Of a stretch of DNA of 64,000 bases, positions 49,102-57,485 are shown piece after piece (the first letter of the stretch is position 1; every line of letters starts with the position of its first letter). A program made the position numbers and the translations under genes. Below the pieces are notes generated by a model. The model was not told where the DNA came from and did not search any database. It saw only the letters and a list, made by a program, of their open reading frames with translations. Source of the stretch: Streptosporangiales bacterium (GTDB taxonomy: Bacteria > Actinomycetota > Actinomycetes > Streptosporangiales > WHST01); NCBI GenBank assembly GCA_009379955.1, contig WHST01000017.1, positions 1 to 64,000 of the forward strand, written 5' to 3'.

Positions 49102-49938
49102 TCACGCGAGGTACGCCTCCACCTCGCGGATCCGCGAGTAGTCGTGGTTCACGGAGTCCAGCCCCACGATCTGCACCTGCGTGGCCGTGACCGGTGCGAA
49201 CGTCGACCCTCGTGACGCCGCGGAGTTGTCCCTGACCGCCGCCACGGTCCGCCACCCGGTGCTCGTCAGGACGCGGACGTCCCAGTCGGTCATCCCGGCG
49301 GTCGCGTGCGTGTACACGTCGACCCGGTTCATCTTCGCCGCCTTCGGCAGGGTCACGGTGTAGTGGTCGGGGAACTCGCCGCTGCTGGCCGAGTTCCACG
49401 CCGACGTCGACCAGGTGCGGTCCCCGTCGACGCCACCGCAGGGGTCGAACTCCTGCGCCCCCGTGACGTACGTCGACGACGGGTCGGCCCGCTCGCCCAG
49501 CAGCAGGTTGTCACCCGGGCTCTTCACCGGTGGCGCGACGACCTCGATCGGCACCCGCAGGTGCCGTCCGCCGGACTGCAGCGTGACGGCGTACGACCCC
49601 GGCTTCGTGCCGTACGCGGCGCCGACCGACAGGGGTGCGGTCGCCTTCGTCTTCGCCGGCAGGTAGCTGGAGAACATCCCGCGCGACAGCTGCAGCGGGT
49701 CGTCGGTCGTCACGAACATGTCCGCGTACACCGCGTCGCCCGTGGTGTTCGTCAGCCCGAGGTCGACGGGCGGTGCCGGCAGGCAGGGCAGGCCCGCCCT
49801 GACCCGTTGCTCGCCGGGCGTGGCGGAGATCGTCACCGGGGACGAGGGCTTCTCCGCCTTGCCGACGGTCGCCGGGGACACGAGCAGGACGGCGGCCACC
49901 GCGACGACCGTCGACCTGACGAGAGGGACCGTGATCAT
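49102..49938 (-). CDS. Secreted two-domain protein with discoidin-like C-terminus, copy 1
   Basis: 278 residues. Signal peptide 1-28 (VPLVRSTVVAVAAVLLVSPATVGKA). Domain A about 30-130: Ig-like or NEW3-like beta domain (AGLPCLPAPPVDLGLTNTTGDAVYADMF). Domain B about 135-278: F5/8 type C (discoidin)-like fold (SPGDNLLLGERADPSSTYVTG, DRTWSTSAWNS, MNRVDVYTHATAG, SRIREVEAYLA). One Cys in each domain might pair. Likely binds carbohydrate or lipid outside the cell. The ATG overlaps the stop of phoD copy 1 (ATGA), with CAGGAG as ribosome-binding site. Close paralogue of 51708-52565. Confidence 0.82.
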   Translation of the reverse strand: MITVPLVRSTVVAVAAVLLVSPATVGKAEKPSSPVTISATPGEQRVRAGLPCLPAPPVDLGLTNTTGDAVYADMFVTTDDPLQLSRGMFSSYLPAKTKATAPLSVGAAYGTKPGSYAVTLQSGGRHLRVPIEVVAPPVKSPGDNLLLGERADPSSTYVTGAQEFDPCGGVDGDRTWSTSAWNSASSGEFPDHYTVTLPKAAKMNRVDVYTHATAGMTDWDVRVLTSTGWRTVAAVRDNSAASRGSTFAPVTATQVQIVGLDSVNHDYSRIREVEAYLA

Positions 49939-51569
49939 GGCTGCGCTCCTGACGTGGACTGGATGCGTGAGCTGCCGTCCTCGACGACCAGGCGCGTGCG
50001 GGTGGACACCGTGCCGCCCGGGTCGGTGACCTGGTTCGCCACCCGGAACTCGGACTGCCACTCGCTCGGGGTGACGGTGCAATGCACGTAGCCGCGTTGC
50101 ACGTTCACGAACCGCACGTGTGGGTTCTCGTCGAGCGTCCGCCGGCCGGACGCGTCGAGGTCGACGCCGTCGCCGCCTGACGAGATCGACGTGCCGGTGA
50201 ACTCCACGCCGACGTTCGGGGACTTCTGGTCGCCGAAGTCCAGTTTCAGGTCCGACGCGATGCTGCGGTGGACGTCGCCGCCGAGTGACACCAGGTTGCG
50301 TACGTGCCGTTCGTGCGCGCCGGCGAGGATGCGCCTGCGGGACGCGGGGTAGCCGTCCCACATGTCCATCGAGTAGCGCGTGCCCGCGCCCTCGAGGGAG
50401 TCGAGCCGGGAGAGCGCGTTCTGCTGTGCCACGACCTTCCATCGCTGGGCGGACCCGGCCAGTCCGGTCAGCAGCCAGTCCTCCTGCTTCTTCCCGGTCA
50501 TCGTCCGCGCCGGGTCCTGCCACGCCGAGCTGTCCTGCTCGACCTGGTCCGACCGGTGCTGCCTGGTGTCGAGGACGTTGAACTGCGCGAGGTCGCCGAA
50601 GGTGAACCTCCGGTAGATCCGCATGTCAGGTCCGGTGGGTAGCTGGGAGAGCCGCAGCGGCATGTGCTCCCAGTGCGCGCGCAGGGCGTTGGCGCGCCGC
50701 AGCAGGAACCGCGCCCAGGGGGTTTCGTCCTTGTCGATCCGCCCGGCCCAGTTGTCCACGACCTCGTGATCGTCGATCGTGACGATCCACGGAGCGATCG
50801 CATGCGCGGCCTGCAGGTCGGGGTCGCTCTTGAACAGCGCGTACTGGTCGCGGTACTGGTCCAGGGTCTCCGTCTCGACCATGCTCGGGAACGCGAGCCG
50901 CGACGGCACCGCGACGTCGCGCGCCACGTCCGGCCGCACGCCGTACTCGTAGATGTAGTCGCCGAGGTGCAGGATCACGTCGAGGTCCTGTCGGGCCATG
51001 TCGGCGTACGCGGTGTAGTGGCCGGCGGTCCACGACTGGCAGGAGGCGAACGCGAACGCCAGGCGGTCCAACGGTGCGCCGTCCGCCGGCGCAGTCCTGG
51101 TGCGCCCGACGGGGCTGATCTCCCCACCCGCGTTGAACCGGTAGAAGTAGTCCCGGCCCGGACGCAGGCCGCGCACGTCGACGTGCACCGCGTGGGTCGA
51201 CTCGGGTCGCGCCTGCGCGGTCCCCGACTTCACGATCGTGCCGAAGCGTTCGTCCTCGGCGACCTGCCACAAGACCGGCACCGCCTCGTACTCCATGCCG
51301 CCGAACGGGGCGAGCGGTTCGGGGGCGAGCCGGGTCCAGATCACGACCGCGTTCGACAGCGGGTCTCCGGAGGCGATGCCGAGGCCGAACGGGTTCCCGC
51401 GCAGTTTGCTGCCCGGTCGCGGTGCGGCGTGGTCCCGCGCGATGCCGAGCAGGTCGGGGGTGAGTGCCGCGGCGGCCGCGGCGCCCGTGAAGGTGAGGAA
51501 CCGCCTGCGGGTGGCGACGATCCCCTCGAGTCGGTCAGGTGTGCTCAGGACGGATCGTCGCGTGCGCAT
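49935..51569 (-). CDS. phoD: PhoD-type alkaline phosphatase/phosphodiesterase, copy 1 (Tat-exported)
   Basis: 544 residues from ATG at 51569; a TTG at 51575 is the alternative. Twin-arginine signal TRRRFLTFTGAAAAAA. N-terminal PhoD domain (GIASGDPLSNAVVIWTRLAPEPL, DYFYRFNAGGEISPVGRTRTAP) then the metallophosphatase: FASCQSWTAG, HLGDYIYEYG, TIDDHEVVDNWAG, LGGDVHRSIASDL. Metal sites (Fe/Ca in PhoD) look complete. Releases phosphate from esters outside the membrane. 132 bases separate it from discoidin copy 2; no clear PHO box was found there. Confidence 0.93.
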   Translation of the reverse strand: MRTRRSVLSTPDRLEGIVATRRRFLTFTGAAAAAALTPDLLGIARDHAAPRPGSKLRGNPFGLGIASGDPLSNAVVIWTRLAPEPLAPFGGMEYEAVPVLWQVAEDERFGTIVKSGTAQARPESTHAVHVDVRGLRPGRDYFYRFNAGGEISPVGRTRTAPADGAPLDRLAFAFASCQSWTAGHYTAYADMARQDLDVILHLGDYIYEYGVRPDVARDVAVPSRLAFPSMVETETLDQYRDQYALFKSDPDLQAAHAIAPWIVTIDDHEVVDNWAGRIDKDETPWARFLLRRANALRAHWEHMPLRLSQLPTGPDMRIYRRFTFGDLAQFNVLDTRQHRSDQVEQDSSAWQDPARTMTGKKQEDWLLTGLAGSAQRWKVVAQQNALSRLDSLEGAGTRYSMDMWDGYPASRRRILAGAHERHVRNLVSLGGDVHRSIASDLKLDFGDQKSPNVGVEFTGTSISSGGDGVDLDASGRRTLDENPHVRFVNVQRGYVHCTVTPSEWQSEFRVANQVTDPGGTVSTRTRLVVEDGSSRIQSTSGAQP

Positions 51570-51707
51570 ATTCAAAATAGTTCGGGATATCGCTAAATGG
51601 CGTTCATCGATCTCCAGGCCCGAGAGTGAACGCTGGGATCAGGGCAGGCAAACGAGTGCGTTGCGCGCGAATGATGAAGAAAGTCGAGATGAAGAGCGGC
51701 CGACGTT

Positions 51708-52565
51708 CTATCCGGCCGGAGGTGGTCCGCCGAGGTACGCCTCGATCTCGCGGATCCGCGAGAGGCCGTGATCGACGGAGTCCAGCGCCACGATCTCCAC
51801 CTTCGCGGCCTCGACGTCGGGGAAGGTGGACGACACGAACGCCGCGGTGTTGCCCCGTACCTCCGCCACGGTCCGCCACGCGCCGTCGCTCGTCTCGACC
51901 CGCACGTCCCAGGCGGACAGGCCCTGGGTCTCGTGGGTGTACATGTCCAGCCGGTTCATCCACGCCGGCTCCGGCAGCGTCACGGTGTACGTGTCGGGGA
52001 ACTCGCCGAAGGTGTCGGAGCTCCACGCGGCCGATGTCGACCAGGCGTGGTCCCCGTCGACCGCACCACAGGGATCGAACGCGGTCTCGGCCGTCACGTA
52101 CGTGGAGGACGGGTCCGCCTGCTCGCCCAGGAGCAGGTTGTCGCCCGGGGCCCTCGCCGGCGGCGCGGTGACCGTGATCGGGACCACCAGGTCCTGTCCG
52201 GCGGAGTCGAGGGTGACGTCATAGCGCCCCGGCTCGGTGCCGTACGGCGCCTCGACCGTCAGGGGTGCGGTCACCGTGGTGCCCGCGGGCACGTAGCTGG
52301 AGAACATGGCACGGGACAGCTCCAGTGGACGGTCGGCCCGCAGGAACGTGTCGGCGTAGACCGCCTCGTCGCCGGTGTTGGTCATGCCGAGGGTGACGGG
52401 CGGTGCCGGTAGGCAGGGCAGGCCGGCCAGGATCTCCTGCCGGTCGGGCGTGGCGGAGAGCTCGATCGGCGACGACTCCGACGCATGCGCGAGGCCCGCC
52501 GGCGCCACGAGCAGTGCGGTGGCCAACGCGACGATCGCCGCCCTGACGCCCGGATGCATGGTCAT
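51708..52565 (-). CDS. Secreted two-domain protein with discoidin-like C-terminus, copy 2
   Basis: 285 residues from ATG at 52565 with GAGGAGA ribosome-binding site. Signal peptide about 1-28 (ALATALLVAPAGLAHA). Same two domains as 49102-49938 (AGLPCLPAPPVTLGMTNTGDEAVYADTF; SPGDNLLLGEQADPSSTYVT; MNRLDMYTHETQG; SRIREIEAYLGG), with both Cys kept. Starts 10 bases after the phoD copy 2 stop, so the two form one unit, mirroring the phoD copy 1 pair. Confidence 0.82.
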   Translation of the reverse strand: MTMHPGVRAAIVALATALLVAPAGLAHASESSPIELSATPDRQEILAGLPCLPAPPVTLGMTNTGDEAVYADTFLRADRPLELSRAMFSSYVPAGTTVTAPLTVEAPYGTEPGRYDVTLDSAGQDLVVPITVTAPPARAPGDNLLLGEQADPSSTYVTAETAFDPCGAVDGDHAWSTSAAWSSDTFGEFPDTYTVTLPEPAWMNRLDMYTHETQGLSAWDVRVETSDGAWRTVAEVRGNTAAFVSSTFPDVEAAKVEIVALDSVDHGLSRIREIEAYLGGPPPAG

Positions 52566-52575
52566 GGCGGTCTCC

Positions 52576-54180
52576 TCACACGGTGCGGATCTGCGGCTGC
52601 CCGTCCTCGACGACCAGGCGGATGCGGGTGGACAACGTCCCGCCGGGATCGGTGATGAAGTCCGCGACCCGGTACTCCGACTCCCACTCCCGCGGAGTGA
52701 CCGTGCAGTTCACGTAGCCGCGCTGCACGTTGACGTACTTCACGTGCGGGTTCTCTGCGAGCGTCACGCGGGCGGCCGCGTCGAGGTCGACGCCGTCGCC
52801 GCCGGACGAGATCGAGGTGCCGGTGAACTCGACACCCACGCGGGGCGAGGCCGGGTCGTCGAAGTCCAGCTTGAGATCCGAGGCGATGCTGCGGTGCGCG
52901 TCGCCGCCGATGGACACCAGGTTGCGCACCTCACGCTCGTACACGCCGGTGAGCACGCGGTCGCGGGACGCCGGGTAGCCGTCCCACCTGTCGATGCCGA
53001 GACGCAGACCCGGGCCGGGAAGTGAGTCGAGCCTGGCCATCGAGTTCTGCTGCGCGATGACGTTCCACCGGCGCCTCGACCCGCCGAGCCCGTCGAGGAG
53101 CCAGGCCTCCTGCTTCGCCCCGGTGAACGTCCGTGCCGGGTCCTCGAACCCCGGGTCGTCCTGCTCGAGGATGCGCGTGCGGTACTGCCTGGTGTCCATG
53201 ACGTTGAGCCGCAGCAGGTCGCCGAAGTCGAACCTGCGGTAGATCTGCATGTCGGGGCCGACCGGCCGCTGCGCCCGCCGGAGCGGCATGTGCTCCCAGT
53301 GGGCGCGCAGGGCGTTGGCGCGCCGGATCATGAACGTCTCCCAGGGCTCGCCGTCCTCGTCGAACATGCCGGCCCAGTTCTCCGCGACCTCGTGGTCGTC
53401 GATCGTGACGATCCACGGGGCGACCCGGTGCGCGGCCTGGAGATCGGGATCGGCCATGAAAAGCGCGTACTGGTCGCGGTACTGGTCCAGGGTGCGCGTC
53501 TCGACGACGTTCGGGAAGGTGAGCCGGGACGGGATCTCGACGTTGCGCGCGACGTCGGGCCGCACTCCGAACTCGTAGATGTAGTCGCCCAGGTGGACGA
53601 TCACGTCGTTGTCGTATCCGGCGACGTCGGCGTACGCGGTGTAGAAGCCCGAGGTCCACGACTGGCACGAGACGAACGCGAACTTCATGCGGCGCAGGTG
53701 CGCGCCCGCCGGTGGTGCGGTCCTGGTGCGCCCGACCGGGCTGATCTCGCCGCCCGCCTCGAACCGGTAGAAGTAGTCCCGGCTCGGGCGGAGGCCGCGC
53801 ACGTCGACGTGCACCGCGTGGGTCACCTCGGGCTCGGCACGGGTGCTGCCGGACCTCACGACCTTGCGGAAGCGCTCGTCCTCGGCGACCTGCCATCTGA
53901 CCCGCACCGGCTCGTAGTCCATGCCGCCGAACGGCGCGAGCGGGTCGAGCGCCAGCCGCGTCCAGATCACCACCGCGTCGGGGAGCGGGTCGCCCGACGA
54001 GACGCCGAGGGTGAACGGGTAGCCGCTCGACCGGCCCGGCCGTGGAGCCGCGCGGGCCTCCTCGATGCCGAGCAGGTCGGTGTTGAGCGCCAGGGCGGCG
54101 GCGGCACCGGTGAGGGTGAGGAAACGCCTGCGGGTGGCGACGATTCCCGCGCTTCGGGCACCGGGGCTGAGGGGGTCCAC
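52576..54180 (-). CDS. phoD: PhoD-type alkaline phosphatase/phosphodiesterase, copy 2 (Tat-exported)
   Basis: 534 residues from GTG at 54180. Tat signal ATRRRFLTLTGAAAALA. Very similar to copy 1 over the whole length: GVSSGDPLPDAVVIWTRLALDPLAPFGGMDYE, FVSCQSWTSG, HLGDYIYEFGVRPDVARN, TIDDHEVAENWAG, IGGDAHRSIASDL. Metal and active-site residues appear intact (GGDAH instead of GGDVH). Starts 12 bases after the PHP gene stop and ends 10 bases before its discoidin-like partner, so co-transcribed. Confidence 0.93.
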   Translation of the reverse strand: MDPLSPGARSAGIVATRRRFLTLTGAAAALALNTDLLGIEEARAAPRPGRSSGYPFTLGVSSGDPLPDAVVIWTRLALDPLAPFGGMDYEPVRVRWQVAEDERFRKVVRSGSTRAEPEVTHAVHVDVRGLRPSRDYFYRFEAGGEISPVGRTRTAPPAGAHLRRMKFAFVSCQSWTSGFYTAYADVAGYDNDVIVHLGDYIYEFGVRPDVARNVEIPSRLTFPNVVETRTLDQYRDQYALFMADPDLQAAHRVAPWIVTIDDHEVAENWAGMFDEDGEPWETFMIRRANALRAHWEHMPLRRAQRPVGPDMQIYRRFDFGDLLRLNVMDTRQYRTRILEQDDPGFEDPARTFTGAKQEAWLLDGLGGSRRRWNVIAQQNSMARLDSLPGPGLRLGIDRWDGYPASRDRVLTGVYEREVRNLVSIGGDAHRSIASDLKLDFDDPASPRVGVEFTGTSISSGGDGVDLDAAARVTLAENPHVKYVNVQRGYVNCTVTPREWESEYRVADFITDPGGTLSTRIRLVVEDGQPQIRTV

Positions 54181-54192
54181 GGGGTGCCCCGG

Positions 54193-55689
54193 TCAGCCGA
54201 GGAAGATCGGGTTGGTGAACGCGACCATCGTGTCCGGCGTCGTCGGCGTCGGCACGGGTCGGCGCACCTCGGCACGGACGTACGCCGACTGCTGCGGCGT
54301 CGTGGTCCACGTGACGGTCTGCTCGGCGGCGTCGGCGAGGGTGAACTGCGCGAGCTGCCCCTCGTCGGTGAGGATCCTGACGACGCCTGCGGTGACGCCG
54401 CGGACGGTCAGCTCGACCGTGACCTTCGCGTCCCCGCGGGCGCGTAGCCGCTCGCCGATGCCGGCCGTACGTCCCTCCGCCGTCGCGCCGAACGTCAGCC
54501 CGACGCTCGCGGACTCCGCGACGTACACGTGGCCCGCGCGGATGCCGGAGAGGATCGCGTCGCGACGCAGGCCCGAGGCGAGCACGACGTTCTGCGGGAG
54601 CCCGACGACCTGGGTGTCGTTGTGCGAGTCGCTGTCACCGACGGCGGGAGTCCACCGGCCGCCGCGCCGCGCCGACGTGACGAGGGTGCCGTCCCACTCG
54701 TACAGCGAGACCTCGTCGTCGGCGGTCCACGGGCCGTTCCACACCTCGATCGCGTCGAAGTCCTCGAAGCCGAACTTCCACGAGCACCCGACGAACGGGC
54801 AGTGCGGGTGCGCGGCGATCGCGAGCGCACCCTGCCGGTGGATCTGGCGCAGGAAGCGGGGAAGTGCGTCGTCGACCGAGCGGTAGCGCCAGTCGATCCA
54901 GGTGCCGGGCTCCAGCCCGGCGGCGACGTAGTGCCCGTTGCGCGTCGTGATCTCCTCGCCGTCGATGATCAGGAGGTCATCGGATGCGTGGTGACCCCAG
55001 ATGCCCGCGGCGCTGGAGGTGTTGTGCTCGCTGGAGTTGACGAAGTCGAGGCCGGCTTCCTTCGCCGCGGCGACGAGCTGGGCCGGCTCCCACCGTCCGT
55101 CGGAGTGCTGCGTGTGCAGGTGCAGGTCGCCGCGGTACCAGTCCTTCCCGCGTCCCTTCGCCTCGCGCGGCGCATGGCTCGGGACGAACGGCTCGCCCGG
55201 CGTACCCCTGCGCAACGTGATCTCGACCTTGTACGTGAGGCCCTGCGGCGCCACCGTGTACGGCCCGAGGACGACGTGCCAGGTGCCCTGCCGGACGGGC
55301 CCCGGCAGGTAGCCGGGCGTCGCCTCGGTCGCGCTGATCGTGAACGAGTCGCGGAAGCCGCCGGACCACCCGCGGAAGCCCTTGGCGTCGGCGAGCTCGT
55401 GGCCGCTCTCGTCGAAGACGCCGATGTCGAGCGCGTTCCCCTGCTCGCCCGGCGGCACCGTCGGCTTGTCGTACGAGTACGTCACCGCGATCTCGCGGAT
55501 GCCCGCCGGTACCCGCACCGGGAGGTACACCCAGTCGGCGACGCCGCGGTCGAGCGTGCCCTCGACGACGCGGGTCTCCTCGTCCGCCTGGTCGGCGAAC
55601 GCGAAGCCGACAGGGTCGAGCACGACGATCGCGCCGGCCGTGCCGGCGGCGACGAGGAACTGGCGTCGGTCGATCGGTGTCGAAGGCAT
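54193..55689 (-). CDS. CehA/McbA-type PHP phosphoesterase, Tat-exported
   Basis: 498 residues from ATG at 55689 (GGGGAG 7 bases upstream). Twin-arginine signal DRRQFLVAAGTAGAIVVL. A beta-rich N-terminal domain (about 40-180), then the PHP hydrolase: DLHLHTQHSDG with the metal-binding His190 and His192, FVNSSEHNTSS, AIAAHPHCPFVG and VGDSDSHND; a C-terminal beta domain follows. CehA/McbA proteins hydrolyse carbamates, but many in this family are uncharacterised phosphoesterases. Operon with phoD copy 2 downstream points to phosphate release. Confidence 0.9.
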   Translation of the reverse strand: MPSTPIDRRQFLVAAGTAGAIVVLDPVGFAFADQADEETRVVEGTLDRGVADWVYLPVRVPAGIREIAVTYSYDKPTVPPGEQGNALDIGVFDESGHELADAKGFRGWSGGFRDSFTISATEATPGYLPGPVRQGTWHVVLGPYTVAPQGLTYKVEITLRRGTPGEPFVPSHAPREAKGRGKDWYRGDLHLHTQHSDGRWEPAQLVAAAKEAGLDFVNSSEHNTSSAAGIWGHHASDDLLIIDGEEITTRNGHYVAAGLEPGTWIDWRYRSVDDALPRFLRQIHRQGALAIAAHPHCPFVGCSWKFGFEDFDAIEVWNGPWTADDEVSLYEWDGTLVTSARRGGRWTPAVGDSDSHNDTQVVGLPQNVVLASGLRRDAILSGIRAGHVYVAESASVGLTFGATAEGRTAGIGERLRARGDAKVTVELTVRGVTAGVVRILTDEGQLAQFTLADAAEQTVTWTTTPQQSAYVRAEVRRPVPTPTTPDTMVAFTNPIFLG

Positions 55690-55701
55690 GCGCTGCTCCC
55701 C

Positions 55702-55746
55702 GTCGGCCGGACACACTCGGACGCGGTCCAAGAGTGTCCGGCCGAC
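55702..55746 (-). terminator. Strong hairpin between phoD copy 3 and the PHP gene
   Basis: Perfect 13-bp stem (55702-55714 with 55734-55746) and a 19-base loop, in the 98-base gap. It lies 41 bases past the phoD copy 3 stop and just ahead of the PHP ribosome-binding site, so it can lower read-through. Confidence 0.65.
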
Positions 55747-55787
55747 TGTCGGTTGGCGAGACGTACGACGATGCGTAGCGAACGGCG

Positions 55788-57485
55788 TCAGGGCCGCTTC
55801 GTCTCCCATGCGATCGTGCGCTCGATCTCTGCGCGGTCGCTGCCCAGAGTGCGGTTGGTCGACGGCGGCCGGTCGTACGTCTGGTGGACGCCCGGCGTAC
55901 CGTCCTCGATCGCGAACGTCGCCCGCGTGAACGCCGCCGCGCCCTGTTCCTGGACGTACGGCAGGCACCGGAAGTCGGACGACATCTCGCCGGGCGTGAC
56001 CGTCGTCCGGATGTACCCGCGGAGGTTGTTGTAGAACTTCAGGTGCGGGTTGATGGTGAGGTACGGGTGGTCCGAGGGAATGGAGTCCGCACCGTTCCCG
56101 CCCGAGGTGATCGAGCTGCAGACGAGTTCGGAGCCGACCGTGTGCGAGTCCGGGTCGTCGTAGTCCGCCTTGAGATCGCTTGCCCAGTGCGCGTGTACGT
56201 CACCGGTGAGGACGACGGGATTGCGCACCTTCGCGTCCAGCCATCCGCTGGTGATCCGCTCGCGCGAGGCGACGTAGCCGTCCCAGGAGTCCATGCTCGT
56301 GCGGTGCACGGGCCCGGCGTCGGCGTCGCGCTGGGCGAAGAACACCTGCTGCCCGAGCACGTCCCACCGCGCACGCGATCGGCGGAAGCCGTCGAGCAGC
56401 CACTTCTCCTGCTCACCGCCCGTGATCGAACGCTTCGGGTCGACCGCCGCGGGGCAGTCGTTCTGGTACCCGTCGCCGCATCCCTGATCGTCCCTGAACT
56501 GCCGCGTGTCCATCATGTGGAACGTGGCGAGTCGCCCCCAGCCGCCGCGACGGTAGATCTGGATGTTCGGGCCGTTCGGGATCGAGGTCCGGCGCAGTGG
56601 CATGTTCTCGTAGTACGCCTTGAACGCCGCGGTACGCCGCTGCAGGAACGTCGGCTGGTCGACGGGGTTCTCCGGGATCTCGTCCGCCCAGTTGTTGTCG
56701 ACCTCGTGGTCGTCGAAGACGACGAGCCATGGCGCCGCCGCGTGGGCCGCCTGCAGGTCCACGTCCGCCTTGTACTGGGCGTGTCGCTGGCGGTAGTTGG
56801 CGAGCGTGACCGTCTCCGGGCCCTCGTGGTCGCGGACGTTGCCGCCTGGGGCGACGTACTCGCCGGCCTTGTACTCGTACTGGTAGTCGCCGAGGTGCAG
56901 CACGATGTCCGGGTCGTCGGCGGCGAGTGCGCGGTACGCGTCGAAGAAGCCGTGCTCGTACTGCGAGCACGAGACGACCGCCAGGTGCAGCTTCGACACC
57001 ATGACGTCGCGCGCCGGTGCCGTGCGCGTACGAGCGACCGGCGAGACGTACGAGCCGGCCTTGAAGCGGTACCAGTAATGCCGGTGCGGCGCCAGGTCGT
57101 CGACCTCGACGTGCACGCTGTGCGCGTGTTCCGGCCGGGCCTGGGTGACGCCCTTGCGGACGATCTGCCGCATCCGCTCGTCCTTCGCGACCTGCCACTC
57201 CACCGAGACCGTCCGGTTCGGCATGCCACCGAGCCCGTCGTCGGCGAGCGGCTCGGGAGCGAGGCGCGTCCACAGCACGACACCGTCGCTCGTCGGGTCA
57301 CCCGACGCGACGCCGAGGGTGAAGGGATCCTTGCTCAACGTGCCGCCGGCGGGCGAGGACGGCGCTGCCGCCGCGTCGTCCGCCAGGGCGAGGGAACCGG
57401 CGGCGGCCGCGCCGATCGCCGCGGCGCCGGACATCAGCGTCCGTCGCGTCAGCCGTGGCCGGGTGGGTTCATCGCGTTCGTTCAC
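55788..57485 (-). CDS. phoD: PhoD-type alkaline phosphatase/phosphodiesterase, copy 3 (Tat-exported)
   Basis: 565 residues from GTG at 57485 with GAGGAG upstream. Tat signal RLTRRTLMSGAAAIGAAAAGSLALA. More distant from copies 1 and 2: GVASGDPTSDGVVLWTRLAPEPL, VVSCSQYEHGFFDAYR, HLGDYQYEYKAGEYV, FDDHEVDNNWADEIP and LTGDVHAHWASDL. This is the commoner actinomycete PhoD type. It has no discoidin partner. The first gene of the leftward phosphoesterase cluster; its upstream region carries a 13-bp direct repeat. Confidence 0.94.
   Translation of the reverse strand: MNERDEPTRPRLTRRTLMSGAAAIGAAAAGSLALADDAAAAPSSPAGGTLSKDPFTLGVASGDPTSDGVVLWTRLAPEPLADDGLGGMPNRTVSVEWQVAKDERMRQIVRKGVTQARPEHAHSVHVEVDDLAPHRHYWYRFKAGSYVSPVARTRTAPARDVMVSKLHLAVVSCSQYEHGFFDAYRALAADDPDIVLHLGDYQYEYKAGEYVAPGGNVRDHEGPETVTLANYRQRHAQYKADVDLQAAHAAAPWLVVFDDHEVDNNWADEIPENPVDQPTFLQRRTAAFKAYYENMPLRRTSIPNGPNIQIYRRGGWGRLATFHMMDTRQFRDDQGCGDGYQNDCPAAVDPKRSITGGEQEKWLLDGFRRSRARWDVLGQQVFFAQRDADAGPVHRTSMDSWDGYVASRERITSGWLDAKVRNPVVLTGDVHAHWASDLKADYDDPDSHTVGSELVCSSITSGGNGADSIPSDHPYLTINPHLKFYNNLRGYIRTTVTPGEMSSDFRCLPYVQEQGAAAFTRATFAIEDGTPGVHQTYDRPPSTNRTLGSDRAEIERTIAWETKRP

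Follow-up and report, generated by a model that had tools for sequence, protein, structure and literature searches.

The window, as we call the whole stretch of 64,000 nucleotides of Streptosporangiales DNA analysed here, carries three phoD genes on its minus strand, two of which are followed by a gene for a discoidin-like protein (disc1 and disc2, hereafter the partners; PhoDs with such a gene downstream are called paired). On that strand the order is phoD3, CehA/McbA PHP gene, phoD2, disc2, phoD1, disc1 and acyltransferase-3, with the following features:

49017-47878, minus strand: acyltransferase-3 gene, next after disc1
49102..49938, minus strand: disc1, Ig-like + CBM32 (F5/8C) partner of 278 aa, with Cys52 and Cys167, predicted secreted
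49935..51569, minus strand: phoD1, PhoD of 544 aa with a Tat-type signal (RRRFL), in the paired clade
51708..52565, minus strand: disc2, Ig-like + CBM32 partner of 285 aa, with Cys51 and Cys166, predicted secreted
52576..54180, minus strand: phoD2, PhoD of 534 aa with a Tat-type signal (RRRFL), in the paired clade
54193..55689, minus strand: CehA/McbA-family PHP metallohydrolase with a Tat-type signal, a neighbour only, within the extra block described below
55788..57485, minus strand: phoD3, PhoD from outside the paired clade, unpaired, with a C-terminal tail of 29 residues, a neighbour only

The phoD1 stop and the disc1 start share an ATGA, giving a 4-bp overlap, and 10 bp separate the phoD2 stop from the disc2 start; for phoD1, TTG at 51575 is a possible alternative start. 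PhoD1 and PhoD2 are 72% identical and disc1 and disc2 63%, and PhoD3 is about 47% identical to each of the other two PhoDs. The two tightly spaced, paralogous tandem modules described in the sequence-only reading are therefore present, as are the CehA-type PHP protein and the third PhoD upstream of them, and the identities mark the two pairs as the probable outcome of a tandem duplication of one phoD-partner pair. Pho-box-like repeats are not enriched in the window, with 12 present where chance would give 21.

All three PhoDs begin with a twin-arginine signal, match the Pfam families PhoD (PF09423) and PhoD_N (PF16655) far over the cut-offs, and carry the conserved DDHE(V) and GD.H motifs in a motif scan. 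The NCBIfam equivalog AlkPhosPhoDBac (cut-off 1000 bits) is not reached by any of them (595, 565 and 682 bits), and by these profiles they would rank as members of the family and not as AlkPhosPhoDBac equivalogs. Cys177 of phoD1 falls in the column of the Fe-ligand Cys-180 of Bacillus subtilis PhoD, as read from the alignment to 2yeq, and a Kribbella PhoD model superposes on the same structure with a TM of 0.89 at 46% identity. The likeness to the B. subtilis enzyme (PDB 2YEQ) thus takes in the fold, the PhoD + PhoD_N architecture, the Tat signal and the position of the Cys Fe ligand; it differs in having a C-terminal cap helix, absent in nearly all paired PhoDs, which in turn differ from it by the separate gene for an Ig + CBM32 partner.

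Both partners match F5_F8_type_C_2 (PF22633, NedA-like F5/8C; 35.4 and 33.6 bits, cut-off 27.8), disc2 also has a weak match to the Ig domain NPCBM_assoc (NEW3), and disc1 scores as a full-length member of the partner family (301 bits). The AlphaFold2 model, built on 45 aligned partners, has a pLDDT of 91.5. Across both domains, Foldseek matches it best to the Ig + galactose-binding region of the Micromonospora viridifaciens sialidase NedA (E 4e-15), followed mainly by CBM32 modules with a target TM up to 0.88, and a profile search likewise returns NedA as best match (E 2e-10), together with chitosan- and fucose-binding modules. The partners begin with an ordinary hydrophobic signal, from which we infer export by Sec. 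A secreted Ig-like plus F5/8C protein had been proposed from the letters alone; the predicted model confirms the architecture of an Ig-like domain and a CBM32 jelly roll. In one respect the proposal needs correction, as it gave each partner one conserved Cys: there are two, one per domain, kept in 58 of 58 partners, and some have a third. Because this Cys pair occurs in all 58 and is missing from the GH78 tails that were read, a disulfide joining the two domains is suggested.

The domain order is that of NedA (PDB 1EUT, 2BZD), from which the partner differs by standing alone, with no propeller, by the two conserved cysteines and by not keeping the galactose-site His. The nearest partner sequences outside PhoD loci are the Ig + CBM32 tails of actinobacterial GH78 alpha-L-rhamnosidases (L091, L093-L095; 149-184 bits), which differ in being part of a large enzyme. 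A further likeness was seen at four loci (L135, L148, L172 and L176), where a PhoD of a different clade is followed by a predicted secreted protein of about 500 aa that ends in an Ig + F5/8C module and carries an additional N-terminal domain that matches no Pfam family; unlike the partner, it keeps the typical galactose-type His/Arg/Asn motif of CBM32.

The galactose pocket of CBM32 is built from Glu, His, Arg, Asn and aromatic residues (PMC12926856), and in the alignment the partners do not reproduce it. At the position of the NedA His all 45 aligned partners have A, S, D or G, and the pocket Arg has no aligned counterpart; Trp181 is invariant. Unusually, disc1 and disc2 also lack a number of consensus residues: Asn182, Asp183, Asn264 and the YPA loop, which nearly all other partners keep, and Arg217/Asp218. 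Since several family-conserved CBM32 loop residues are lost, the ligand of the window's copies may have changed, following transfer or duplication; and because the NedA-type His is missing from the whole family and more is lost from these two copies, the sugar binding predicted for the partner is not assured. The fold points to carbohydrate over phospholipid as ligand.

The pairing reaches far beyond this genome. Partner matches were found in 33 of 201 genomes of an order-level set, and in all 22 fetched loci of the order with a full-length partner (window excluded) phoD lies immediately upstream. A GTDB-wide scan with an alignment as query yielded 61 strong partner loci, in 59 of which phoD immediately precedes the partner on the same strand; the remaining two are L084, which runs into a contig end, and L091, the tail of a GH78 rhamnosidase. 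These loci come from Jiangella, Kribbella, Microlunatus, Streptomyces, Micromonospora, Actinoplanes, Actinopolymorpha, Streptosporangium, Nonomuraea, Saccharopolyspora, Pseudonocardia and others, the pair spanning at least eight families of soil actinobacteria. Spacing is mostly -4 to +18 bp, and three loci have broken or partial frames (phoD in L046 and L087, partner in L066 and L087). A class-wide sample of 297 genomes was picked regardless of the partner, with a PhoD threshold of E <= 1e-100. All 17 stand-alone partners in it, two of them the window's own, follow a phoD (contig-cut in L247, partial in L249), and two GH78-type tails do not. Because PhoD occurs in 118 of the 297 genomes and the partner in 14, yet every stand-alone partner follows phoD, the adjacency is, judged by gene order, not due to chance. 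The search for conserved phoD-discoidin pairs in other genomes, which the sequence-only reading had put forward, thus bears out co-conservation both across GTDB and in the class.

Trees place the paired PhoDs together. In a tree of 50 PhoDs, 35 paired and 15 unpaired members split on one branch (100/99), and a tree of 80 gave the same split (SH-aLRT 98), both sets having been found partly via the partner. When sampling was by PhoD alone, a clade of 42 members (SH-aLRT 99) held 37 paired PhoDs and 5 without a partner downstream, and the 46 other unpaired PhoDs all fell outside it. A rule of universal pairing within the clade, true in the first two trees, failed here. Partner presence appears to depend on PhoD clade, with a minority of the clade lacking it, and PhoD would work alone in part of the clade because five members have no partner. 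The idea of an obligate partner accordingly stands from the partner's side and only mostly from that of PhoD within the clade; most PhoDs sit in other clades without one.

Distances among PhoDs and among partners correlate with r 0.93 over 58 pairs (permutation maximum 0.24), a value from which shared ancestry is not fully removed. The two trees also share groupings that run against taxonomy, placing Streptomyces TRM68367 and SBT349 with a Streptosporangiaceae-type genome of the window's order, and so the pair would move as a unit. With trees that mirror each other, phoD and partner appear to evolve together; in these trees the window pairs lie closest to Jiangella.

Other genes around the pair differ between taxa. 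The PHP protein belongs to CehA/McbA, scoring 233 bits on NF038032 (cut-off 80), and matches a Tat signal weakly; none of 19 other PHP loci has a PhoD within 1.5 kb. In a sister species (G001, contig C71, L169) the acyltransferase-3 gene adjoins phoD3, and the block disc1-phoD1-disc2-phoD2-CehA (49102-55689) is missing; comparison of the two sequences indicates that these five genes were gained in the window's genome or lost in G001. Membership of the PHP protein and PhoD3 in the module is accordingly dropped, the former for its relatives without a nearby PhoD and the latter since it stands without the block in the sister species. Some pairs (Jiangella, several Kribbella) lie shortly after genes for a sugar ABC transporter or a rhamnosidase, which hints at polysaccharide use in some species; as a general rule a conserved polysaccharide-degradation context was discarded, being present at some loci only. 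Two Kribbella loci (L048 and L050) have a very large protein of about 1300 aa directly before the pair, with no Pfam match in either copy and, in L050, weak NCBIfam similarity to the rhamnosidase AlphaRhamBT4145. Elsewhere in the window's genome, a further PhoD (L114, G000, contig C90) has a glycerophosphodiester phosphodiesterase (GDPD) gene about 0.6 kb on.

About 17 loci have the partner in frame with phoD and its stop. Programmed read-through between the genes was rejected, as frame and spacing vary (-4 to >25 bp), and linkage was used for modelling only. The chain chosen, from Kribbella L044 with the stop read as Gly, has 794 aa and an alignment of 46 rows, 17 of them paired. AlphaFold2 gave this single chain, whose short linker forces proximity, a pTM of 0.83, against at most ~0.68 expected if undocked, a ceiling defined by two folded parts placed at random. 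As the value lies above that ceiling, the model docks PhoD and partner with fair confidence. A complex of the two is likely on this model, and the interaction assumed in the sequence-only reading gains the backing of a prediction from one linked chain.

Our preferred reading, held with moderate confidence, is that the pair is a two-subunit secreted PhoD phosphodiesterase: its CBM32 subunit would attach to the enzyme and confer recognition of a phosphodiester polymer that bears sugars. The catalytic subunit would be the Tat-exported PhoD with its Fe/Ca site. The partner would be an Ig-like + CBM32 module that has turned into a protein of its own, exported by Sec; modules of this type form the C-terminal end of bacterial sialidase and GH78 rhamnosidases. 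Outside the membrane the partner would dock on PhoD, its CBM32 face recognising the polymer (a phosphoglycan such as glycosylated wall teichoic acid) and presenting it to the active site of PhoD. These actinobacteria commonly carry glycosylated teichoic acids, and teichoic acid, one of the two ligands first proposed, would be a plausible one. Wall teichoic acid is the presumed target of B. subtilis PhoD (PMC4223295). The pairing, the single-clade distribution, the matching trees and the domain architecture come from sequence and the complex from prediction, and to these the reading adds by inference the glycan ligand, the substrate, the interdomain disulfide and the Sec export. We hold only tentatively to a more specific form, in which the detached CBM32 subunit docks so as to close over or frame the active site, replacing the missing C-terminal cap, and directs PhoD to a phosphate-linked glycan.

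The cap also underlies an alternative that we consider unlikely, namely that the partner is a maturation or stability factor which lies over the active site and keeps the Fe/Ca cofactor bound in place of the C-terminal helix, sugar binding being secondary or lost. When that helix is cut from B. subtilis PhoD, activity and Fe absorption are lost (PMC4223295). In 54 of 56 paired PhoDs the C-terminus lies <=7 residues past the last shared column, against tails of 25-35 residues in 26 of 52 unpaired ones, and both the predicted docking and the absence of the known galactose residues would suit such a role. The other 26 unpaired PhoDs, however, have no tail either and no such partner, and five members of the paired clade do without one; moreover, these are raw counts uncorrected for kinship, and the cap role of the unpaired tails is putative. 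Replacement of the cap by the partner is thus weakened as a rule.

It is rather improbable that the partner acts on its own, binding a glycan of the wall or of the environment, and shares transcription with PhoD but no physical complex. CBM32 modules act alone in many enzymes, an operon layout would by itself yield linkage, and no natural PhoD-partner fusion was found among the 58 phoD-bearing loci checked; the near-absolute pairing with one PhoD clade, the matching trees and the docked model speak against it. Some F5/8C domains bind lipids. A phospholipid-directed pair would have a discoidin domain that binds membrane lipids and a PhoD acting as a phospholipase D, like that of Streptomyces chromofuscus, a PhoD-family enzyme that attacks phospholipids (PMC4223295). 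Such a pair is very improbable, as the closest folds are nearly all CBM32 and lectins, with coagulation factor C domains lower in the Foldseek list, and the profile matches are sialidase, chitosan- and fucose-binding modules; the phospholipid ligand first proposed is disfavoured on the same grounds.

The sequence-only reading knew of no described PhoD-discoidin system, and none turned up in our searches of open-licence papers. The two-gene PhoD + Ig/CBM32 arrangement is absent from the literature searched; the enzyme family and the type of binding module are already known. The pairing is also more general than the window alone could show. Few bacterial extracellular phosphatases are as common as PhoD, a usual marker of soil organic phosphorus turnover, yet to our knowledge only very few of its members have known natural substrates. 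If the two-subunit reading is true, it bears on how helix-less PhoDs hold their Fe/Ca site, and a dedicated sugar-binding subunit would mean that some PhoD activity has particular glycan-phosphate polymers as its target, for the finding of which the partner's ligand would be a direct handle.
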